Shown here: piece by piece, positions 1 to 58,662 of the stretch | Layout: the number at the start of each line of letters is the position of its first letter | Numbering within the stretch: the stretch's first letter is position 1 | IMG/VR virus record: IMGVR_UViG_3300022745_000020 | Coordinates: 62,001 to 126,000 of that record | Direction: 5' to 3' (one strand) | Length of the DNA: 64,000 bases | Source of the DNA: a virus | Made by a program: the position numbers and the translations under genes | Notes under the pieces: model-generated | Seen by the model: only the letters and a program-made list of their open reading frames with translations | Databases searched by the model: none | What the model was told of the DNA's origin: nothing

Positions 1-273
1 GCCAGTGGAGGATCTGGTGCTGGTGCAGGTGGTACTGGTGGCGATGGTATTTTTACTAAGACAGGAACGTACAATGGCTTTGTAGTCATTCAAAGTAGCA
101 ACGGTCCAGTAGGTGGTGCGGGTGGTGCTTCACCGGCTGCTGCCGTCTATGACTCAGTGCTGCTTGGAAGCGGTGGCGGTGGTGGGGGAAAAGGCTTTGC
201 GGGGGCCGCTGGTGGTGATGGATGTTTACGTATTTCTTTTCCAATGAACCTTTTAGCGGGATCACCTTTTTAA
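1..273 (+). CDS. Gly-rich tail-fibre adhesin, C-terminal part only
   Basis: The open frame runs in from the left edge (frame 1) and stops at TAA 271-273, giving the last 90 residues. They are very rich in Gly, with runs such as GAGAGGTGGDG and GSGGGGGKG alternating with short polar loops. Gly-rich motif blocks of this kind occur in fibre-tip adhesins (gp38 of T2/S16-type phages) and in the C-termini of many phage fibres, where they form packed polyglycine helices that carry receptor-binding loops. Position just before four more fibre and depolymerase genes fits a host-recognition role. The exact family cannot be decided without the N-terminus. Confidence 0.7.
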   Translation, partial: ASGGSGAGAGGTGGDGIFTKTGTYNGFVVIQSSNGPVGGAGGASPAAAVYDSVLLGSGGGGGGKGFAGAAGGDGCLRISFPMNLLAGSPF

Positions 274-383
274 TGCGAGTACTTTACACTAAAATGCCCT
301 TTATTACTTGTGTAGAGGTGCGTATGAGCCTGAAATGATCAGATCTGCCGACCAATTTAGCGTATTTTTAATTAAAGGTATCT

Positions 384-2798
384 ATGAGCTACTCTCCATC
401 ACTCAAGGGCGTGTATATCGGTACTTTTGCCACCGAAAAAGCCTTGACAGACTCCGTCAATCCCACCAAAGTGCCAGGATCTTTTGCTCTGGTAGGTACT
501 GGCCCCTATCGGATCTTATATGCAGAGGGGTCTAATTGGATCGATCATCACCTGCGCACACAAGGCGATGACCTACTCGACGCCAATGGCATATCTGTAC
601 GAAATAGAATGGATGTCGCCAGGAGGAATTATATCCTCTCTTCACTAGAGGCACCTGTCATCATCCCTCCACGTCTGCAAGTGGGTGCTAACGGCGCTAT
701 TCAATTTGGCACTTTGGTCTCTGGCACTACCATTACTTTCTCTGCCACCTCTGGCACGGGTGTGACATGTACAGCCAGTGCAGCATTCTTCACCAGTGCC
801 GCGGTGGATGTGAATAAGTACATTTCACTGCCCACAGGTGAGTGGGCTCAAGTGACAGCTTTCACCAGTACTACTGTGGTAACAGTCAGTATCTTGACAG
901 CAGGACCTGCCCTGAAGGGTACAGTAGGACCATATTCTAATTGGTATTATGGCCATGGCACAGCTGCAGTGTATGGCCATCCGGGTTACTCAAATGTCGC
1001 TCGTGCAGCTCTGGGTTGCTGGATGTACTTCAAAGCAGGTGCTCTCTATGCGGGCTCAGCTGCAGACACCTATTGGGTGGTGATGCGCAGCCCAATGACA
1101 GGCACTGCTTTCAACACCACGCCAGACAACGGATTCGGTCGCCTCCCATTGGCTACACCACAACGTATCATATCACCGGCTATGGGTGAGCAAGCCCATG
1201 CTGCAGGGGACGTATTCTTTGGAGGGGCTACAGCTATCCCTTTTGGAGCAGTGGGGCCAAATGGAAACGTAATCTGCACCCTAGCGGGCACCGCCTCTAC
1301 ATCAGCTCTAACTAAATATGTTATTCCGTACTATGGAAATAGCAGTTCTGGGCGACCGTCGTCCACTACAGCTGGGGGTTTTGTTCTGAGAACCCGATGG
1401 AGTGCTAGAGGCAGTCACTCTATACTCAGCCCTGCCCAGGGGTGGAGTGGTGAAACCGATGTCACTGGTCATGGTAATGCATCCAACGACATTGCTGGCG
1501 GTAAACCGACATTCCGCATGAAAGGAAATAGCGGTGGTCCAGATGACTATATCACCATTGAGAATCTGCGATTAGAGATCGATCCAGGTCCTTCTGGAGG
1601 TCGAGCTCTGCGCTCACCAGCGACTCTACCTATCACGGTACCTGCCGATTTCATGGGGATGAATCTCATGCAGCCGGGGTATAGCGGTAATGCCCTATCC
1701 CTGGTCAGTAAGGTCGGGGTAAATCGACTGAATCAGTCTCGTGTGAGTATGTGGGCTGCTATAGAGACAGCTGCAGGGGTATATAACCCTACTATACTGT
1801 CTAGTCTCGGGGCTATAATCACCGCCATCAAGGCCAAAGGGGGAAAGATAGCTCTGGGGTTATACGCCACACCTACTTTTTATGCGGGTACTACCCCGCA
1901 TCCTACTTATACAGATGCACAGACCCTGGGGCCATGGGGATATCTTGGAGAGTGCTCCAATCCCACCAGCACCACTGCAGTGGTGAACTTCGTTACATAC
2001 ATGATCAATTATTTCAATAAACCCGGAGGTGCTTGGTATGAAGCCAATGGGGGAAAGAAAGGTATTGATTATTGGGAGACTTGGAATGAGCCGGAGAATT
2101 ATACCGATTCAAACCAAAACTCCACAGGTGTAGGAGCTAAGGGAAAACAGTTTTGGTGGGGTAGCAGTACCCAATTGGTAGACCTGTGCAAACTACAGTA
2201 CGATTTGATTAAGTCATTAGACTCCTCCATTGTTATATGGTCACCTGGCTTTGCATCAACTAACGCCAATGCTCAAACATTTTTAGCGTGTCAGGGCACT
2301 ACTTACAGTTCCACCACAGGTGCTGATACGTTTGATCAGTTTTCTTTTCATACCTATTCAGCAGCCCCACCGGGGGAGACTACCGGTGTGGGAAATGGAG
2401 ATATCTTAACCAACTTAACTGGGCTGTATGAGCAGGTAACTGCACTGAGAACTCAAGGGTATAACTTTCCTCTGACCATCGGAGAGATAGGGTTTGACCC
2501 AGATGCACTCAATTCGGCAGCATGGTATGCAAAATCTGCAGCCGATCGATACACCTACTGGTGTAGAGTGGCCATGGTCTGCGCCGCCTGGGGCATCAAA
2601 TCCATATTGCCGTGGCACTGGACCTCAGGTAACACCACAGGAACAGCTGGTAATTGGGGAGGCGATGTGGATGGTTGTACTAAAGCCTACAATGATATCC
2701 AGACTAAATTGTGTGGAAAGACCATTGTCTCCTACAGCTATGAAAATAACTCCCCAGTGAGGCTGGACTTCAGCGACGGCACCTACTGGGTGGTATGA
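384..2798 (+). CDS. Tail-fibre/spike protein with GH-A-type glycoside hydrolase domain
   Basis: 804 residues. The first ~400 are Thr/Ser/Gly-rich beta-type sequence, probably virion attachment and carbohydrate-binding modules. Residues ~415-760 look like a (beta/alpha)8 retaining glycosidase of clan GH-A (GH39/GH5-like). WNEPE carries the likely acid/base Glu569 at the end of strand 4. TIGEIGF carries the likely nucleophile Glu701 at the end of strand 7. FSFHTYS lies between them, as expected for the family. The start at 384 follows an AAAGG ribosome site. Neighbouring genes encode a polysaccharide lyase and fibres, so this is probably a depolymerase that cuts capsule or exopolysaccharide during adsorption. 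The fold and catalytic pair are inferred from motifs; substrate is unknown. Confidence 0.75.
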   Translation: MSYSPSLKGVYIGTFATEKALTDSVNPTKVPGSFALVGTGPYRILYAEGSNWIDHHLRTQGDDLLDANGISVRNRMDVARRNYILSSLEAPVIIPPRLQVGANGAIQFGTLVSGTTITFSATSGTGVTCTASAAFFTSAAVDVNKYISLPTGEWAQVTAFTSTTVVTVSILTAGPALKGTVGPYSNWYYGHGTAAVYGHPGYSNVARAALGCWMYFKAGALYAGSAADTYWVVMRSPMTGTAFNTTPDNGFGRLPLATPQRIISPAMGEQAHAAGDVFFGGATAIPFGAVGPNGNVICTLAGTASTSALTKYVIPYYGNSSSGRPSSTTAGGFVLRTRWSARGSHSILSPAQGWSGETDVTGHGNASNDIAGGKPTFRMKGNSGGPDDYITIENLRLEIDPGPSGGRALRSPATLPITVPADFMGMNLMQPGYSGNALSLVSKVGVNRLNQSRVSMWAAIETAAGVYNPTILSSLGAIITAIKAKGGKIALGLYATPTFYAGTTPHPTYTDAQTLGPWGYLGECSNPTSTTAVVNFVTYMINYFNKPGGAWYEANGGKKGIDYWETWNEPENYTDSNQNSTGVGAKGKQFWWGSSTQLVDLCKLQYDLIKSLDSSIVIWSPGFASTNANAQTFLACQGTTYSSTTGADTFDQFSFHTYSAAPPGETTGVGNGDILTNLTGLYEQVTALRTQGYNFPLTIGEIGFDPDALNSAAWYAKSAADRYTYWCRVAMVCAAWGIKSILPWHWTSGNTTGTAGNWGGDVDGCTKAYNDIQTKLCGKTIVSYSYENNSPVRLDFSDGTYWVV

Positions 2799-2816
2799 AG
2801 TAAAATAAGTGTATAC

Positions 2817-2868
2817 AGACACACCCTACCTATACGGCCCATGTAAGCCGTATAGGTAGGGTGTGTCT
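2817..2868 (+). terminator. Perfect 22-bp hairpin between fibre genes
   Basis: Left arm 2817-2838 and right arm 2847-2868 are exact reverse complements with an 8-base loop, just after the stop of the glycosidase gene. No long T-run follows. It is probably a terminator or 3'-end stabiliser. Confidence 0.7.
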
Positions 2869-2869
2869 A

Positions 2870-2895
2870 AATCTAATGAATGCGTATCCACATGG
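2870..2895 (+). promoter_or_regulatory. Shared upstream motif of fibre genes (copy 1)
   Basis: AATCTAATGA followed by GCGTATCCACATGG, 34 bases before the fibre gene at 2930. A close copy, AATCTAGTGA then GCATATCCACATGG, precedes the fibre gene at 5221. Two copies downstream of hairpins and upstream of late-type genes suggest a late promoter or leader element. Function is inferred only from the repetition. Confidence 0.35.
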
Positions 2896-2929
2896 GTAAA
2901 ATCCCTTTCTCTATTGGTAAGGAAACGTT

Positions 2930-4318
2930 ATGTATTTTGATCAACTACTCCCCTCTACTGCAGGTTTGGCTCTCATAAAGGCCGCTTCTGCATCAGCACA
3001 AAGATCCCAACTCGGCCTGGGAAGCGCATCGACGCTGAACGCCACAAACATCGTTCAATCGGTCAATGGCCTGGCACCTGATGTCTCGGGTAATGTCCTG
3101 ACTCGCAATTTTACCTCAGGTACAGTAGGTGCTACAGCAGTAGTTATCCCCCTGGCTACGTACCTGTTGGTGGGTGCACCACACACACTTAACGTCACAC
3201 CTGATACGGGATGTACTCTACAAATAGAATACAGTCTGAACAACGGGGCTAACTATGTGGTGTATGATACAACCACAGTCAGCAACATTTACCAGTATAC
3301 GATGCTGCCTGGTGAGAGCGCGATTACTCATCTGCGCATTACTCGCACTGCAGGCACCAGCAACAACAGCACCTATTATCTCAGTGGGGGTGTGGACTAT
3401 GCTCAGTACCCCGCAGGCTCTCCAGCTATATCGATCACTGCGGCTAACATCTCAGACTCTTCTGCAGCAGGTCGAGCCTTACTGACAGCTGCAGATGTCA
3501 CCACTCAAAATGCACTATTGGGCACCAGTGGGGCGATCACCTCTTTGGCTGGGATGCAAGCTACTTTTAATAGTGGCTCTGCTGCAGAAAAAGCCGCGTT
3601 TCAATCGTCAGTAGCGGGGGTGTTCAATGAGATGGTCTCGCTGCACCCCAGTGCTATTCCTTTGATTATCCCAGGCAGTGGCACAGTGAGCACCAACGGG
3701 GCATTGGTGCTGGGTACAGCCAACTCTGTTATCTACAGTGACAGTTATGTATATCTTCCAGCAGGAGCTGCATTTGCAAGCTCTATCGCTGGATTTTACT
3801 ATGTAAAATTCACCACTCTAACTACAGGCACCATCTACAATAACGTCTATTCCCCAGGTGCAAACTTCCCCTCTATCGTAGCTGTGCCAACTGCGATTTC
3901 TGCAGCCGGCCCCGGTGCATTTACAGGCCCCACCACTGAAATTGATGCAGTGGTCGTCACTGTGACTGGTGGTGCTATGGGTGTAAATGGACGCATCCAC
4001 ATCCAGTACTACGCTGGAGGCACCAACAGTGCAGGCAACAAGACCGTCAAAATTTACTACGGTGACACTAACTTAAACTCCTCTACCATGACCACTCAGC
4101 TGCAGCTGTGTATGCCGCTGTATGTGATCCAAAACCGGGGTAAATTAACCAGCCAGTATACCCCAGGATCTGCTTTCTCTGGCACCAGCACCAGCGCACC
4201 TGTAGCTACTTCGATTGACTCGTCTGTAGATCAGATCGTCAAGATCTCTCTGACACACTCCAGTGCTGCTACCGATAACATCGTACTAGAGTCGTGTAAC
4301 ATCGACGTGTGGGGTTGA
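2930..4318 (+). CDS. Tail fibre protein
   Basis: 462 residues, low in charge and rich in Thr, Ser, Ala and Gly, as in trimeric beta-structured fibres. The N-terminal 60 residues contain AQRSQLGLGSAS and SVNGLAPDVSGNV, motifs frequent in phage fibre attachment regions. ISDSSAAGRALLTA near residue 180 matches the repeat unit of the long fibre at 5221. The C-terminal ~230 residues form a separate unrepeated domain, likely receptor binding. Start is supported by AAGGAA ten bases upstream. It ends two bases before the lyase gene, so the two are probably co-translated. Receptor unknown. Confidence 0.7.
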   Translation: MYFDQLLPSTAGLALIKAASASAQRSQLGLGSASTLNATNIVQSVNGLAPDVSGNVLTRNFTSGTVGATAVVIPLATYLLVGAPHTLNVTPDTGCTLQIEYSLNNGANYVVYDTTTVSNIYQYTMLPGESAITHLRITRTAGTSNNSTYYLSGGVDYAQYPAGSPAISITAANISDSSAAGRALLTAADVTTQNALLGTSGAITSLAGMQATFNSGSAAEKAAFQSSVAGVFNEMVSLHPSAIPLIIPGSGTVSTNGALVLGTANSVIYSDSYVYLPAGAAFASSIAGFYYVKFTTLTTGTIYNNVYSPGANFPSIVAVPTAISAAGPGAFTGPTTEIDAVVVTVTGGAMGVNGRIHIQYYAGGTNSAGNKTVKIYYGDTNLNSSTMTTQLQLCMPLYVIQNRGKLTSQYTPGSAFSGTSTSAPVATSIDSSVDQIVKISLTHSSAATDNIVLESCNIDVWG

Positions 4319-4319
4319 T

Positions 4320-5081
4320 ATGTCGGTTTATTACACCAAACCCACTAAGCGATTTACTACGACTGAGCCGTTTACTGGAGCAGTGGGCACTTATGATCTA
4401 CAAGCGCTTTCCTCTTCAAGATTGGTGATATCCTCCGATGCATCTGGTCAGCTCGCCACATTCACTTGTCAGCCAGGCGATCAATATCAAACATCCTCCG
4501 GCGAGCGCACAGAGATCATTTTAGGAGGGGGTTCGAATTCAGCAGCATTCAAGGTCACTGGGCTGGAAAACGATGTAGAGTATTGGACGTTTTCCGTCAA
4601 GCTAAGTTCCCCCTGGAGTCAGCCCGGGCTGTACAATGGCGTCTCACGTTGGCTAGTTCCCATTCAGTTTCACGGACCTGACTCGTACATAGCCCCTCCC
4701 AGCTTGGCTCTACAAACGGAGACAGGGGTATATGTCATGAGTATGTGTGTGGGTAATATGTCCAGTAAAAATACAGTCATGTACCCGCTGACTGACAACA
4801 ATTTACTGCTCGATAATTGGGTGGACTTTTGCTTCGAGATTCGCTGGTCTACAGGTACAGATGGCTATGTGAAACTGTATCGCCGCAATCCAGGAAGTGT
4901 ATATACCCGGGTATGTAAGGTGGCTAGTACCCCCACCATGCAGTATGCTACCGCAGGAGCCGCACAGATGCACTATGCTAAGGCGGGTATTTATCGCTCA
5001 CCATCATCGACCACCCACGTGGCATCTCATCGTCAGATCACCCGTACCACCGCCAGACCTGCAGGTCTGCCAGTGGCGTAA
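4320..5081 (+). CDS. Polysaccharide lyase (heparin-lyase-I-like jelly roll), tail depolymerase
   Basis: 253 residues. The pattern matches the concanavalin-like Polysacc_lyase fold (PF14099-type, related to heparin lyase I and PL7/PL20 alginate and glucuronan lyases). GERTEI at 61-66 supplies the Arg/Glu strand motif. IQFH at 115-118 is the Q-x-H motif. W167 with a following DGYVKLY strand fits the family core. YAKAGIYRS at 219-227 is the Y-x-K-x-G-x-Y motif carrying catalytic Lys/Tyr. No signal peptide, as expected for a virion enzyme. It follows the fibre gene with one base between, so it is probably mounted on the tail to cleave uronic-acid-containing surface polysaccharide by beta-elimination. 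Substrate unknown. Confidence 0.72.
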   Translation: MSVYYTKPTKRFTTTEPFTGAVGTYDLQALSSSRLVISSDASGQLATFTCQPGDQYQTSSGERTEIILGGGSNSAAFKVTGLENDVEYWTFSVKLSSPWSQPGLYNGVSRWLVPIQFHGPDSYIAPPSLALQTETGVYVMSMCVGNMSSKNTVMYPLTDNNLLLDNWVDFCFEIRWSTGTDGYVKLYRRNPGSVYTRVCKVASTPTMQYATAGAAQMHYAKAGIYRSPSSTTHVASHRQITRTTARPAGLPVA

Positions 5082-5119
5082 GGGTGTCTAAAATAATCAA
5101 CATTTGATGAACACTACAC

Positions 5120-5155
5120 CCACTGTACATGGACGATGTCGTCCATGTACAGTGG
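5120..5155 (+). terminator. Hairpin after lyase gene
   Basis: 15-bp perfect stem (5120-5134 with 5141-5155) with a 6-base loop between the lyase gene and the long-fibre gene. Confidence 0.65.
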
Positions 5156-5188
5156 TCTATGTTGCACATACACTCTACCTAATCTAGT

Positions 5189-5211
5189 GATTTGACCGCA
5201 TATCCACATGG
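5189..5211 (+). promoter_or_regulatory. Shared upstream motif of fibre genes (copy 2)
   Basis: Contains GCATATCCACATGG ending nine bases before the ATG at 5221, with the AATCTAGTGA block starting at about 5180. It is the partner of the motif at 2870-2895. It could also act as leader or ribosome-site context because of the GGAG that follows. Confidence 0.35.
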
Positions 5212-5220
5212 AGCCTCACT

Positions 5221-8154
5221 ATGCAAAATGATTTTCCGTCCAGGAACGGAGCGCCTATTAACTTCACCACTGGCTTGATGATCAAGGGAGTGAACATCTC
5301 CGGTGATGAGGGGGCTAAGGTAATGGCCCTCAAAGTTAAAGCCTCGGATACCTCTGCCACCTCCGTATATGACTGGATCCGGTCGATGGACACGACCGTG
5401 GCCTCCATCTTACAAAACGGTGTAGCCTCTACCGGCTCCGTCACTGTCAGTCAGATCAGCGATGCCTCCTCACTCGGGGTGAGTCTGCTCAAAGCCACCT
5501 CCACCACACAAGCTCAGACTCTGCTGGGAGTGGGTGCAGCGACTTCTTTTACCATCAGTCAAATCTCTGATGCGTCCACCATCGGTAAAGCCCTGATGAG
5601 TAGCGCATCAGCTACTGCAGCTCGTGGCTATATCGGCCTAGGTACGGCAGCGACTCAAAACACCACAGCATTCGCTACGGCCATCCAGGGCACCAAAGCC
5701 GATACCGCTCTACAGCCTGGAGTACTGCCAGCAGGCACGACCATAGTCACCAGTCAGATCAGTGACGCCAGCGCGTTCACTAAAGACTTCCTGACTGCCA
5801 CCAGTGCAGCCACAGCTCAGACTAAACTGGGCTTGGGCAGCGCCGCCATTCAAGCATCGACTGCTTTTGCTACATCTACTCAAGGTGGCAAAGCCGATAC
5901 CGCCTTACAGCCTGGAGTGCTGCCAGCAGGCACGACCATAGTCACCAGTCAGATCAGTGACAGCTCCTCATTGGGGCGCAGTCTGCTGACGGTGAATACA
6001 CAGGCCGATCTGAAGACCCTGGTGGGGGTAGCTGCCAACACCAATGTCACCATTTCTCAGATTAGTGATGCCGGAGCTACCGGTGCTGCCATCTTAGCTG
6101 CAGGATCCACCACAGCAGCTCAAGCTGCAATCGGTCTACCTAACGCATCGACTGCATTACAACCCGGTGCATTGCCACTGAATACGACAGTCACCATCAA
6201 TCAGATCAGTGATGCTAATGCGTGGTCTCGTACGTTTCTAACAGCATCTAATACTGCAACTGCATGGGCACAGTTGGGGCTCGGTAGCGCAGCGGGTACC
6301 GCAGCCAGTGCGTTCGCTACTGCTGCTCAGGGCTCATTGGCTAGCACTGCTTTGCAGCCCGGTGCATTGCCAGCGGGCACCACCATCGCATCGACTCAAA
6401 TCTCTAATGCCTCTGCCCTGGGCAGGCAAGTCCTCACAGCAGCCACCGCTGCACTGGCCCAATCCTATCTGGGTCTGGGCACAGCTGCGACTCAAAACTC
6501 TACCGCATTCGCTACAGCTGCTCAGGGTGCACTGGCTGACACCTCCTTGCAGCCATCTTCTATCGGTGTCACCGTAGCGGGTCTGTCAGGTGGTAAGCTC
6601 AGTAGCTCAGTCATCCCAGATATCGCCATCGTTCAATATCTGGGATCAGTAGCCAGCCAGACCGCCATGCTGGCACTGACTGGTCAGCAAGGTGACTGGT
6701 GTATCCGCAGTGACTTAGGCACCACCTGGGTGATCACGGGTGCTACGCCCACGGTGATCGGCAGCTGGACTCAGCTGTCCTATCCTACTGCCCCAGTGAC
6801 CTCTGTAGCCGGTAAGACAGGCGCTGTCACACTGGCAGCTGCTGATATCAGTGATGCCTCCACCATCGGTAAAGGTGTGTTGACGGCTACGACTGCAGCC
6901 ATCGCTCAGACTGCTCTGGGTCTGGGCAGTGCTGCCGGATATGCAGCCAGTGCATTCGCTACAGCTGCACAAGGTACACTGGCTGGGACTGCATTGCAGC
7001 CCGGTGCATTGCCACTATCGACTACAGTCACCATCAATCAGATCAGTGATGCTAATGCGTGGTCTCGTACGTTTCTGACTGCCAATAGTGCATCTTCGGG
7101 ACGTACTCAATTGGGCCTGGGTACTGCAGCGGTATCGGCCACTACCGATTTTGCTACTGCGCTGCAGGGCTCTAAAGCCAACACGGCATTGCAGCCCGGT
7201 ACGAACCTCACTCAGACAGTGGTGTCAGCGACTTCTCTGGCAGGCTCCCAACTCATCACTGCAGCCGATACCGCCTCTATGCGCAGTGTACTGGGTCTAG
7301 GTACTGCGGCCTTGAACAATGTTGGAGATTTCGCCACAGCCGCTCAGGGCACCAAAGCCAACACGGCTCTGCAGCCCAGTCAGGCAGGTGGTATCATGGA
7401 CCAATATCTGGTCAATGGCGTGACGCTCACAGGAGCTGCGCTGATGACATCGACCTCAGTGGCTGTAGCCAGAGCCAACCTGGCTCTAGGTCCCGGTTAC
7501 TCCTCCGATGTCATTGCGTATCAGGGTACCTGGGCTGGCCGCCCCGGCACCAACATACCACTGCCGGGTAACCGCATAGTCATCACTGATGTGGGTGTGA
7601 AGGGAAGGGCCGCCCACAATTACATTCACATGGTGCTCACTTATTCCTCACTCGGTTCCTATTATTACTCCTTGCTTAATGGCAGTGCAGTGATTTATGA
7701 CTATATCGGCTCGCAAGATACCCCCACGACTGGTTATAGCTTCCTCGCAATGAAGATAAACTCAAATTTGACACTAACCGTCCCAGGGGATTTTCTATCA
7801 CCCGTAACAAATACAGTTAGGTATGACCTGGAGTTCACTATCGATCAAAATTCGGTGGATGCCAGTAACCGTTCAATTATTTATATCCGATTTGGCTCTA
7901 CAGGCACCGATAGTGACCGACTCATCGGGACTTATCCCATCTCCGGAAACTCGATAACTACAGTCATCCGAGCCAGCTTTACCCTAGAGGGGTATAACTG
8001 CTGGACATATAACCCTCCTCTATATCAAGTCCTACCCTTTAGTAATTACAATATAGCCTTTGGCACCAGCAACTACTTCACGGTCTGGGTCGCTGGAGGT
8101 GCATCTGGTGAAAGTAGTATGATGCGTCAGCAGCGCGTCGTTGCCAGTTTCTAA
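5221..8154 (+). CDS. Long repeat-built tail fibre
   Basis: 977 residues. From about residue 70 to 730 the protein is a chain of degenerate ~55-65-residue repeats, each with a QISDAS-type start, an LGLGTAA-type middle and a FATAAQG...TALQPG-type end. I count about nine to ten units. Between repeats lies VAGKTGAVTL (about residue 530), a motif common in phage fibres. The C-terminal ~215 residues are unrepeated, aromatic-rich and less biased, likely the receptor-binding head. Start ATG 5221 follows GGAG nine bases upstream. A bidirectional hairpin separates it from the convergent gene at 8215. Confidence 0.8.
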   Translation: MQNDFPSRNGAPINFTTGLMIKGVNISGDEGAKVMALKVKASDTSATSVYDWIRSMDTTVASILQNGVASTGSVTVSQISDASSLGVSLLKATSTTQAQTLLGVGAATSFTISQISDASTIGKALMSSASATAARGYIGLGTAATQNTTAFATAIQGTKADTALQPGVLPAGTTIVTSQISDASAFTKDFLTATSAATAQTKLGLGSAAIQASTAFATSTQGGKADTALQPGVLPAGTTIVTSQISDSSSLGRSLLTVNTQADLKTLVGVAANTNVTISQISDAGATGAAILAAGSTTAAQAAIGLPNASTALQPGALPLNTTVTINQISDANAWSRTFLTASNTATAWAQLGLGSAAGTAASAFATAAQGSLASTALQPGALPAGTTIASTQISNASALGRQVLTAATAALAQSYLGLGTAATQNSTAFATAAQGALADTSLQPSSIGVTVAGLSGGKLSSSVIPDIAIVQYLGSVASQTAMLALTGQQGDWCIRSDLGTTWVITGATPTVIGSWTQLSYPTAPVTSVAGKTGAVTLAAADISDASTIGKGVLTATTAAIAQTALGLGSAAGYAASAFATAAQGTLAGTALQPGALPLSTTVTINQISDANAWSRTFLTANSASSGRTQLGLGTAAVSATTDFATALQGSKANTALQPGTNLTQTVVSATSLAGSQLITAADTASMRSVLGLGTAALNNVGDFATAAQGTKANTALQPSQAGGIMDQYLVNGVTLTGAALMTSTSVAVARANLALGPGYSSDVIAYQGTWAGRPGTNIPLPGNRIVITDVGVKGRAAHNYIHMVLTYSSLGSYYYSLLNGSAVIYDYIGSQDTPTTGYSFLAMKINSNLTLTVPGDFLSPVTNTVRYDLEFTIDQNSVDASNRSIIYIRFGSTGTDSDRLIGTYPISGNSITTVIRASFTLEGYNCWTYNPPLYQVLPFSNYNIAFGTSNYFTVWVAGGASGESSMMRQQRVVASF
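5425..7380 (+). repeat. Tandem degenerate repeats inside the long fibre gene
   Basis: Units of roughly 170-200 bp recur in the same frame. Each encodes an ISDAS block, an LGLG/AA block and an FATAxQG/ALQPG block. Some neighbouring units are nearly identical at DNA level: the segments at about 6170-6240 and 7005-7075 encode the same ITINQISDANAWSRTFLT-type string. That points to recent duplication or gene conversion within the gene. Confidence 0.8.
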
Positions 8155-8171
8155 TACAGACATCATAATCA

Positions 8172-8211
8172 CTCATGTAGGGTGAGGGGGTACCCCCTCA
8201 CCCTACATGAG
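8172..8211. terminator. Bidirectional terminator, perfect 40-nt palindrome
   Basis: 8172-8191 and 8192-8211 are exact reverse complements. It sits in the 60-bp gap between the convergent genes ending at 8154 (+) and 8215 (-), so it can end both transcripts. Confidence 0.75.
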
Positions 8212-8214
8212 ACT

Positions 8215-9810
8215 TTATGTCACATTCACCGCCACACAAGTGGGCCGATTGCCGCGCGGGTTAGCCTGCGCCACAGTCTCGATCAGTGCATTGTTTTGAA
8301 TGACTGCGTTGGTGATATCGCCCACATGGGAAAAGTTCACACAGATCTGCCTTTGCACATCCCCTACAGATACAGCGGCCAGGCGCATACTCATCACCAC
8401 CTCAGTACCCACAGGAATGTTAAGCAAGATGGCTGAGCGATTATCCACTTGTCCATATCCCTTAACATTATAGTCCGCTCGTGCGTCGAGTAGATACTTT
8501 CTGATATCTTCAGCCACACTGGCCTTATTCTGAGTCGATACAATTGTATCGGTTGCAGAGGGGTAGACCCGATAGCTCAATACACTCACAGTCGGGTCGA
8601 TGCGGGTATTGTTGATATTGATATCACTGTACCAAGCATTGACCGAGCCGAGTGTGCCGTCATCGCGGATAAACTGAAATGGCTGCACCTTCACAGTCAT
8701 ACTCTTACAGTACACCCCTGTCAAATTAGCTAAGCGGGTATCGAGTACATTCAAACTCAGTACCAGTTTTAAATACCCAGTGCCCTCTTCTTTATAAGCT
8801 TGTAATTTGACTTTGAATGCCGCATTGCTATAATAGTCCGATGAGACATTACCCACCTTCATATACGTCTGCCCTGTATTACTTAAGACATAATAATCAT
8901 CATCGAGCATCACGGTTTGAAACATACCGCCGTATTGGATGGGGGTGGTGGCTGCTTGAGGCAGCTGATTGGTCAGCACAGGAGACGCAGCATTTCCATA
9001 GGTGATCGGATAGGTCCCCAGATAGTAGCTCAGCTCACTATGGGCCAGAGCACTGCGATCTTCCACGGACTGTACACGTTTTAACAACTCCCTGAGTGTG
9101 GCACTCAATTGAGTCAACTCCTGCTGCCTCAATGTGACATCACCCTGTACAGCATCGGCTGCGTTTTTAGCCGCCTGAGCCGTGAGCATAGCGCTATAGC
9201 TCAAGTCTCGACTGCCCGAGCTGATCATATTCGTCAGCTCGACCATGCGCTCATCGATGTATCTCAGAATCGCATCACTCTGGATCTGATCGCCTCCCAA
9301 GATGGCCTGCCTGATCATCTCCATAGCACTGATCACGTACTCGAAGCCTGTGACATCGCCCAGGCTATGCAAGTGCATGGTCGGATCGAACGTCTGAGGC
9401 TTACCCACGACGTTAGGCCAGCCCAGAGGGCGAGTATCAGCGAGTAAGTTATTCACCAGCGCTTGGATACCCGTATAGTCCTGGACATACTCACCGCCGA
9501 TGGTCTGATAATCGACTAAGATGTCATTGCTCACCGCGGTGTTAAGCACCACGACTGAGCGATAGACATCTCTGCCGCTATTGACCGTGGCTGTCTGGGC
9601 CAGATCTTGACACTGGTATTCGATGTCCTTGACCAAGACGCGTTGAGTGTGTGCATCTCTGACTACAATCGAGTCATAGAAGTAAGGTGCGTACTTCGGC
9701 GCAAAGCTGCGGTAGGTGCGAGATCCACTCAGCGATACTGCTTCTGCAGAGATTTGGTTATAGGGGCTTTGCCCAGATAGATCCAGATCGAAAGTTAACG
9801 TATTGGGCAT
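8215..9810 (-). CDS. Virion structural protein, probably baseplate or tail
   Basis: 531 residues. Residues ~1-170 resemble the N-terminus of the neighbour at 9853-11901: a beta-rich start, a 'DYQTIGGEY' segment matching 'NYQALGGES', then an 'HSLGDVTGFEYVISAMEMI' region matching 'QDIRDLYGLEYLTAGLNRI'. A short coiled coil follows at about 225-260. The rest is beta-type sequence ending in a basic tail. The shared domain suggests both proteins attach to the same virion ring. ATG at 9810 follows AGGAA. The four genes 8215-13951 are consecutive on - and probably form a single late operon. No enzyme motif seen. Confidence 0.6.
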   Translation of the reverse strand: MPNTLTFDLDLSGQSPYNQISAEAVSLSGSRTYRSFAPKYAPYFYDSIVVRDAHTQRVLVKDIEYQCQDLAQTATVNSGRDVYRSVVVLNTAVSNDILVDYQTIGGEYVQDYTGIQALVNNLLADTRPLGWPNVVGKPQTFDPTMHLHSLGDVTGFEYVISAMEMIRQAILGGDQIQSDAILRYIDERMVELTNMISSGSRDLSYSAMLTAQAAKNAADAVQGDVTLRQQELTQLSATLRELLKRVQSVEDRSALAHSELSYYLGTYPITYGNAASPVLTNQLPQAATTPIQYGGMFQTVMLDDDYYVLSNTGQTYMKVGNVSSDYYSNAAFKVKLQAYKEEGTGYLKLVLSLNVLDTRLANLTGVYCKSMTVKVQPFQFIRDDGTLGSVNAWYSDININNTRIDPTVSVLSYRVYPSATDTIVSTQNKASVAEDIRKYLLDARADYNVKGYGQVDNRSAILLNIPVGTEVVMSMRLAAVSVGDVQRQICVNFSHVGDITNAVIQNNALIETVAQANPRGNRPTCVAVNVT

Positions 9811-57222: not shown

Positions 57223-57696
57223 ATGAGCAAGACGAAAACCGCTGAAGGTCACGTGAGCGTGGCCGACATCTCCGCCAAGCTGCGCGACGAGGTCAAGGAA
57301 GTCGACGGCAAGCTGAACATCGACGGCGAACAGTACTACGTCCACGGCAACAACGAGGGGCTGAGTCGCCAGACACTCGACCACGTCGAGAACTACACCG
57401 GACGCTACGCGGCTGCAGCTACTCTGGCCATCGGCAGCGCCGCGCACGACCTGATCGTCAACGGCGCCAGTGAGAGTGGAGTGGTCGAAGGTGCTGCCGA
57501 GATCGGCCACAAGAGCCTGGAGGTGGTCTACAAGAAGGAACACTCCTTCACTCCCCCCGGTGGCGAAGCCCGTACCGTGCATGGTCACACCACTGTGCGA
57601 GTCGTGGACAAGCTCAAGGAAGTGCGTGCCGTTCGCAAGGAGCTGCAATCCGCAGCTGCTGCGGTGTGGGGAGCCCCCGAGGGCAACAACAGCTGA
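57223..57696 (+). CDS. Hypothetical protein, probably highly expressed
   Basis: 157 residues from ATG 57223 (CGAAAGGAAAATCCCA upstream). Helical with an Ala-rich centre (GRYAAAATLAIGSAAHDLIV) and a Gly/Pro turn (TPPGGEARTVHG). Codons are strongly C/G-ending (AAC, GAC, ATC, CTG), more than in neighbouring small genes, as in abundant structural proteins. Not recognised; could be a small virion or decoration protein. Confidence 0.55.
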   Translation: MSKTKTAEGHVSVADISAKLRDEVKEVDGKLNIDGEQYYVHGNNEGLSRQTLDHVENYTGRYAAAATLAIGSAAHDLIVNGASESGVVEGAAEIGHKSLEVVYKKEHSFTPPGGEARTVHGHTTVRVVDKLKEVRAVRKELQSAAAAVWGAPEGNNS

Positions 57697-57726
57697 TCGA
57701 AAGATCAGTCGACAAACAGAGCATAC

Positions 57727-57786
57727 ACCACCACACTGAGGATCACTCCTCAGTGTGGTGGTGATCATCTATCTATTTTTTTTTTC
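57727..57786. terminator. Bidirectional terminator between convergent genes
   Basis: 16-bp perfect stem (57727-57742 with 57747-57762), 4-base loop, then a T-run (57775-57786) on +. Confidence 0.85.
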
Positions 57787-57792
57787 AGAATA

Positions 57793-58662
57793 TCACGAAG
57801 CGATGACGGCTTGAGCCGCCAGAGACGCCGTCGAGCTGGCCAGGCCATTCATGTCAGGCTGGACCATATCGGCTTGGATACCCTTCAAGAAGGCACTGCG
57901 CATCATCGGGTTGGCGTTGAGCTGGGAGATGTTGTTCATCACGGTCTGAGCCAGCAGCTCCACACCACGACCAGTCTGAGTCACGCCGGTCCATTGGATC
58001 GAGATCTCCAGATGTTCCATCCCGTTGGTGAGGTCACGCTTGCCCAGGATATCATTGGTGCCCTTTGGATACATACCAGCGGTCAGCCAGGCTTTGGAGA
58101 CCTGGGTGTTGGTCGGATCGGGCTCCCAGCTCAGGATGGTCATGGAGTACATATCCAGCGTCATGGGGCCCACTGGTACACCGCTGACCGTGTTGATCAT
58201 CGGAGTCTTGGTCTCCGGATCCATGATCAGATAGGTGATCCAGTCGTGCAGCATGTTCTGGAAAGGACGACCATACAGATCGACCACTGTGCACTGCGGA
58301 TTGGTGCGCTCACGGGTGACGTTGGTGGGCGTCTCCAGGATCTCACCAGCCCCACCGACGGTGGACTCAGTGGTAGCCACAGTCAGGCCGCTGTTGAAGC
58401 CTTCCCAGGAGATGGCATGCAGCTCCACGAGGGACTTCAGTGCCGCCAGATAAAACTCACTGTTGGGCAGTTGCGAAAACCCCAGAGGGGCTTCCATGAC
58501 CATGTGGCGAGTGTGATTGCGCCGATACTTGGTCGAGCTGACCAGTTGCGACAGATCCACAGCGGTGCCATGCTGGCCACCGAAGCGTGGATCCAGGATG
58601 GGTTCTTGTCGACCATAGGCATAGGCCTTGTCGGTCATCAGAGCGTTGGGTAGACGAGCCAT
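57793..58662 (-). CDS. Tail tube protein
   Basis: 289 residues. Directly downstream of the sheath gene on the same strand, the invariant order in contractile-tail phages. Beta-rich core with an RLPNALMTDKAYAYGRQEP N-terminus and a HLEISIQWTGVTQTGRGVE strand pair near the end, typical of tube proteins of large myoviruses (phiKZ gp30-like, as I recall). Many hexamers should form the inner tube through which DNA passes. CTCCTTTC-complement site (GAAAGGAG) precedes the ATG at 58662. Confidence 0.7.
   Translation of the reverse strand: MARLPNALMTDKAYAYGRQEPILDPRFGGQHGTAVDLSQLVSSTKYRRNHTRHMVMEAPLGFSQLPNSEFYLAALKSLVELHAISWEGFNSGLTVATTESTVGGAGEILETPTNVTRERTNPQCTVVDLYGRPFQNMLHDWITYLIMDPETKTPMINTVSGVPVGPMTLDMYSMTILSWEPDPTNTQVSKAWLTAGMYPKGTNDILGKRDLTNGMEHLEISIQWTGVTQTGRGVELLAQTVMNNISQLNANPMMRSAFLKGIQADMVQPDMNGLASSTASLAAQAVIAS

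Follow-up and report, generated by a model that had tools for sequence, protein, structure and literature searches.

Most known phage capsule depolymerases are beta-helix tailspikes. The jumbo phage phiKp24 has fourteen putative depolymerases (PMC9700779). PslG, a GH39-like endo-glycosidase of Pseudomonas aeruginosa that acts on exopolysaccharide, has the catalytic residues E165 and E276 (PMC7237758). A prophage of Acinetobacter guillouiae encodes a putative glucuronan lyase (IPR025975) (PMC12507336), and the lyase families PL13 and PL7 have a jelly-roll fold in common (PMC12088678). Multi-depolymerase tails, phage GH39-like enzymes and a prophage-borne PF14099-type lyase (PMC12507336) are therefore known, each as a separate precedent.

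The fibre locus described here encodes a PF14099 lyase together with two GH39-like barrels, enzyme families that phage annotation has overlooked; no PHROG family covers either the GH39-like barrel or the PF14099 lyase. We consider it likely that a jumbo myophage distantly related to phiKZ carries here a variable locus of tail fibres, with several exopolysaccharide-degrading enzymes that would clear host glycan.

The phage and its fibre locus

The window, by which we mean the whole stretch of 64,000 nucleotides that was analysed, corresponds to bases 62001-126000 of a virus record of 147,902 bases that is itself probably incomplete. The phage encodes a phiKZ-type multisubunit RNA polymerase and a tail sheath (PHROG 3148, 2986, 3242), which together mark phiKZ-like phages, and PHROG matches to virion proteins are also present. 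Its genes place it among the phiKZ-like jumbo phages, as a distant member. Relatives of the RNA polymerase are 32-39% identical, and the nearest annotated ones belong to Burkholderia glumae phages, with 36-39% identity in the large subunit. A comparison of the opening 25 kb of the window with 50,697 phage records gave no near DNA match.

At least seven fibre or glycine-rich tip genes, with parts in common, lie between and around the enzyme genes. Two of the fibre genes within the window are as follows.

2930..4318, + strand: fibre protein, 462 aa, of which aa 7-188 are 57% identical to part of an upstream 1457-aa fibre
5221..8154, + strand: large repetitive fibre protein, 977 aa, with PHROG head/tail fibre matches

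The 977-aa fibre has its N-terminus in common with a 717-aa protein encoded upstream of the window, at positions 4751-6904 of the neighbouring stretch L002. The 717-aa protein is a possible tailspike; its PF12708 match (18.6 bits) is under the cut-off, and we do not claim it as a pectate-lyase-type tailspike. A repeated array of fibre genes with glycine-rich C-terminal domains occupies L002:8527-20000 and window positions 1-273, and recalls polyglycine adhesin tips; one gene in this array has a weak PF21722 match. Third-position GC is lower in genes of the fibre locus (0.45-0.58) than in three core genes (0.61-0.72), which fits a variable, exchanged region.

A fibre-fused glycoside hydrolase

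The first enzyme gene of the window encodes the protein that we call GH_A.

384..2798, + strand: GH_A, fibre-fused GH39/PslG-like glycoside hydrolase, 804 aa (open reading frame; matches to GH39 xylosidase/PslG profiles; AlphaFold barrel)
390..578, + strand: N-terminal module, aa 3-65, common to neighbouring fibre genes (blastp)
579..1622, + strand: middle region, aa 66-413, without a family match in profile searches
1623..2795, + strand: clan GH-A (beta/alpha)8 domain, aa 414-804 (AlphaFold; PslG as top PDB fold match)
2088..2090, + strand: codon of Glu569, predicted acid/base, equivalent to PslG E165 in the alignment (conserved in 43/43)
2484..2486, + strand: codon of Glu701, predicted nucleophile, equivalent to PslG E276 in the alignment (conserved in 43/43)

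A first-pass annotation of this DNA had proposed two polysaccharide-cutting enzymes, and both open reading frames lie where it placed them, at 384-2798 (804 aa) and 4320-5081 (253 aa). It described the former as a GH-A-type hydrolase with Glu569 and Glu701 at its active site, a claim that our alignment and structural model bear out. The full GH_A protein alone has no significant match in Pfam, PHROG, NCBIfam or PDB, and a single-protein search of phage records and viral contigs returned no relatives. Its C-terminal 391 residues align with P0005, a 393-aa protein encoded upstream, and with a "beta-1,4 xylanase" of Caulobacter phage Cr30. Across 43 aligned sequences, drawn from the window, from viral contigs and from bacterial genomes, seven columns are invariant (W457, E565, W567, N568, E569, H656 and E701). 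It is the profile of this family, not GH_A alone, that matches GH39 beta-xylosidase (E 1.7e-30) and PslG (2.2e-27) in the PDB, and both catalytic glutamates align with the PslG pair, for which chain and protein numbering differ by a constant offset of 26 by our count.

The first-pass annotation had named a fold lacking the TIM barrel as evidence against its proposal. AlphaFold predicts a barrel with eight barrel strands (pLDDT 80.6, pTM 0.87), in which E569 directly follows strand 4 and E701 lies within strand 7, and the top PDB fold match of this model is PslG (Foldseek, E = 1.2e-12). GH_A thus has the marks of clan GH-A, namely a (beta/alpha)8 barrel, an Asn-Glu acid/base and a strand-7 Glu nucleophile, and its assignment as a clan GH-A hydrolase with the right catalytic pair is well supported; by family profile and fold it is GH39/PslG-like. 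Among viral folds, the barrel is matched best by phage proteins; a tail protein of phage Goslar (E 1.9e-4) and the GH5-domain proteins of Pseudomonas phages rank among the weaker matches. TIM-barrel glycosidases in phages are thus of an already known kind. Relatives of both GH domains, that of GH_A and that of its upstream paralogue, are at most 28% identical, and substrate specificity is therefore not transferable.

Residues 3-65 of GH_A match the N-termini of neighbouring fibres encoded at L002:13828 (39% identity, E 7e-8, blastp) and L002:16750 (E 3e-5, blastp), which makes GH_A a fibre-fused enzyme. By this resemblance, the module is likely to be the part that attaches to the tail. GH_A would accordingly be a fibre with a C-terminal GH39/PslG-like domain, predicted to be an endo-hydrolase with a retaining mechanism in which E569 acts as acid/base and E701 as nucleophile.

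A second hydrolase and hairpin-closed units

A paralogue of the hydrolase domain lies in the same fibre locus.

Record 57461-58642 (L002:15461-16642), outside the window: P0005, second GH39-like enzyme, 393 aa (profile match)

The P0005 gene overlaps the end of a glycine-rich fibre gene, and its own end is 3.7 kb upstream of the GH_A gene. P0005 scores narrowly above the Pfam GH10 cut-off (24.3 vs 22.1 bits), and matches the GH39/PslG-type profile with an E value of 9e-47. The GH tree gives no answer on duplication as the origin of GH_A and P0005.

Several genes of the locus, including those for all three enzymes, are followed by inverted repeats.

L002 6920-6957: hairpin after the gene for the 717-aa protein
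L002 16653-16685: hairpin after the P0005 gene
2817..2868, no strand assigned: perfect 22-bp hairpin, 18 nt past the GH_A stop codon (-43.7 kcal/mol, z -9.4), terminator-like without a clear T-run
5120..5155, no strand assigned: perfect 17-bp hairpin, 38 nt past the lyase stop codon (z -5.3), terminator-like
8164..8219, no strand assigned: hairpin with 28-nt arms (89%) and convergent genes on either side, closing the fibre locus (repeat search, folding, terminator scan)

Inverted repeats of at least 14 nt with close arms number six in about 24 kb, and five of them lie directly past stop codons, those of the 717-aa protein, P0005, GH_A, the lyase and the 977-aa fibre. The hairpins behind the three enzyme genes are perfect. 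All five post-stop hairpins have folding energies far below those of shuffled sequence (z -5.3 to -9.5), and two were scored as terminator-like in a scan of window positions 1-8300, a range that does not include the upstream pair. The post-stop hairpins are probably terminators that divide the fibre locus into units, and their positions indicate that each of the three enzyme genes closes one such unit.

A standalone polysaccharide lyase

The third enzyme is encoded without fusion to a fibre.

4320..5081, + strand: polysaccharide lyase, standalone, 253 aa, PL13/PL20-type (PF14099 match)
4506..4514, + strand: codons of R63-x-E65, aligned with heparin lyase I R83/E85 (conserved in 20/20)
4665..4673, + strand: codons of Q116-x-H118, aligned with heparin lyase I Q149/H151 (Q in 18/20, H in 6/20)
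4974..4994, + strand: codons of Y219, K221 and Y225, aligned with heparin lyase I Y351/K353/Y357 (Y225 in 18/20, K221 in 14/20, Y219 in 11/20)

The first-pass annotation put the two enzymes two genes apart with fibres between them; the spacing holds, and the intervening fibres are a single fibre-like gene (2930-4318), the stop codon of which is 1 nt ahead of the lyase start. The lyase matches PF14099 with 49.4 bits (E = 6.9e-13; Pfam gathering cut-off 29.9). Its family alignment comprises 20 domains, the phage lyase and nineteen proteobacterial PF14099 domains, and the phage protein has the conserved active-site set of PF14099 (R63, E65, Q116, K221 and Y225). The aligned residues of heparin lyase I, which are numbered by count along its chain in the profile alignment, we take to be catalytic there. 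The heparin-lyase-like residues listed by the first-pass annotation therefore include the conserved set of the family, but also H118, a variable position at which Lys (10/20) is more frequent than His.

The heparin-lyase-like label itself is correct at the level of PF14099 and too narrow below it. With the family profile, the E value is 2.3e-11 for glucuronan lyase 2zzj (PL20) and 2.4e-10 for heparin lyase I (PL13), and alginate lyases match more weakly. At 253 aa, against about 380 aa for heparin lyase I, the phage enzyme is also much the shorter of the two; this length leaves no space for the long insertions that set heparin lyase I apart from the profile, and the size and inserted thumb region that mark heparin lyase I proper are absent. 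By profile and length, the phage lyase stands no further from glucuronan lyase than from heparin lyase I. A jelly-roll fold is presumed from homology; the AlphaFold model, made from the single sequence without relatives, has a pLDDT of 28.9.

The lyase is highly diverged, with at most about 25% identity to any relative found. Searched singly against phage records, viral contigs, plasmids and GTDB contigs, the protein had no relatives; an alignment-based scan found none either, and a direct search with the protein in 398 proteobacterial genomes found nothing. The PF14099 family profile matches in 29 of 398 proteobacterial genomes, in 16 of them above the cut-off. The designation of the phage lyase as a putative beta-eliminating enzyme of the heparin-lyase type is well supported at the sequence level, and membership of PF14099 implies a uronic-acid-containing substrate. 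A uronic-acid-containing polymer had been suggested for the enzyme pair as a whole. The lyase is consistent with this suggestion, but the hydrolase says nothing on uronic acid, its nearest characterised relatives being PslG and beta-xylosidases.

Proposed function

The analysis shows the genes and their order, the enzyme families, the catalytic residues, the predicted barrel fold and the fibre module of GH_A; enzyme activity, substrate, presence in virions and a role in infection are inferred. Their position in a fibre locus suggests that all three act on host surface glycans. GH_A is the only one of them with the fibre-shared module, and no recognisable attachment domain was found in the lyase or the second hydrolase, for which position is the one feature that points to presence in the virion. 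The lyase would cut a uronic-acid-containing chain by beta-elimination to give an unsaturated uronate end, with R63 and Q116 holding the carboxylate and Y225 and H118 acting as acid/base. The second GH39-like enzyme, upstream in the same locus, would join the set. By removing host capsule or exopolysaccharide, the enzymes would give the fibres access to the cell. Alternative polymers or hosts are most likely the targets of the different enzymes.

The lyase could instead be a free, non-virion enzyme that is let out at lysis and clears matrix near the cell, as in a plaque halo. A standalone 253-aa open reading frame without an attachment module is what this explanation would predict, but the gene is found inside the fibre locus and immediately behind a fibre gene, and we regard a free lyase as somewhat improbable.

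The first-pass annotation took the presence of a hydrolase and a lyase to suggest a layered or variable capsule, an inference that does not follow from the two enzymes occurring together. On a single host with a layered or mixed capsule, or with one polymer, the lyase might open uronate linkages and the hydrolase cut the remaining backbone, and two enzyme chemistries in neighbouring genes accord with such a division of labour. However, the GH39-like paralogue and the hairpin-closed units resemble modules set in parallel more than the steps of a pathway, and a PF14099 lyase above the cut-off is found in none of the 17 searched virus records with a GH39-like gene, so that there is no general partnership. 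We consider this explanation unlikely. Because the fibre locus includes a second GH39-like enzyme, the recognition of alternative receptors or hosts would account for the set equally well or better, and we favour parallel modules against alternative polymers, like those of phiKp24, over a layered capsule.

The four phiKZ-like contigs searched likewise have no PF14099 lyase above the cut-off, and a GH39-like gene is present in none of six phiKZ-like records. These absences indicate that, among the records examined, the enzyme set is particular to this phage. Our searches revealed neither the enzyme combination elsewhere nor a second jumbo-phage tail locus that encodes a PF14099 lyase.

A more specific proposal, which we offer as speculative, is that the locus consists of cassettes, each with one or more fibres followed by an enzyme and a perfect hairpin, that the lyase is bound without covalent linkage to the tip of the 462-aa fibre, and that exchange of cassettes switches the host glycan. 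To our knowledge, a jelly-roll polyuronate lyase held at a fibre tip is a type of depolymerase that has not been described in lytic phages. That one or both domains are inactive and now serve as glycan-binding adhesins is very improbable, for although their divergence is extreme and terminal branches of the GH tree are long, the two catalytic glutamates of the hydrolase are kept, as is every lyase residue named above. If the enzymes are active, they would add to the means of degrading acidic exopolysaccharides of bacteria and the biofilm matrix.

Comparison with known systems

PslG resembles GH_A in being its top PDB fold match, in having the same catalytic Glu pair and in a profile match (E 2e-27) that spans profile positions 63-418. 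PslG is, however, an enzyme of a bacterial biosynthesis cluster with a C-terminal carbohydrate-binding domain (PMC7237758), whereas the GH_A barrel lies behind a phage fibre module, and the two are about 14% identical. The "beta-1,4 xylanase" of Cr30 and GH39-like genes of uncultured phages belong to the same domain family as GH_A. The Cr30 gene encodes 394 aa and is unfused, but here the domain is fibre-fused in one copy and occurs in two copies per locus. In the GH tree, the GH39-like genes of phages form a well-supported clade of 11. In several viral contigs of this clade (L012-L027), the gene is directly upstream of a conserved pair of genes encoding ~320 and 423 aa; contigs with this arrangement look like prophages, and the members that were scanned have no PHROG match.

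Heparin lyase I and glucuronan lyase have PF14099 in common with the phage lyase, and the named residues align. Unlike glucuronan lyase 2zzj, the phage lyase has the Q-x-H and Y-x-K-x-G-x-Y set. The A. guillouiae lyase is of the same type and also phage-carried, a likeness drawn from its description and not from its sequence, but it resides in a prophage rather than in a phiKZ-like tail locus.

The Klebsiella jumbo phages phiKp24, RaK2 and phiK64-1 also have many enzyme-bearing fibres per tail locus (PMC9700779). The phiKp24 depolymerases are beta-helix tailspikes, whereas the locus described here, from a phiKZ-type phage, combines a TIM barrel with a lyase predicted to be a jelly roll. Multi-depolymerase jumbo-phage tails are known, and it is the enzyme families that are unusual.
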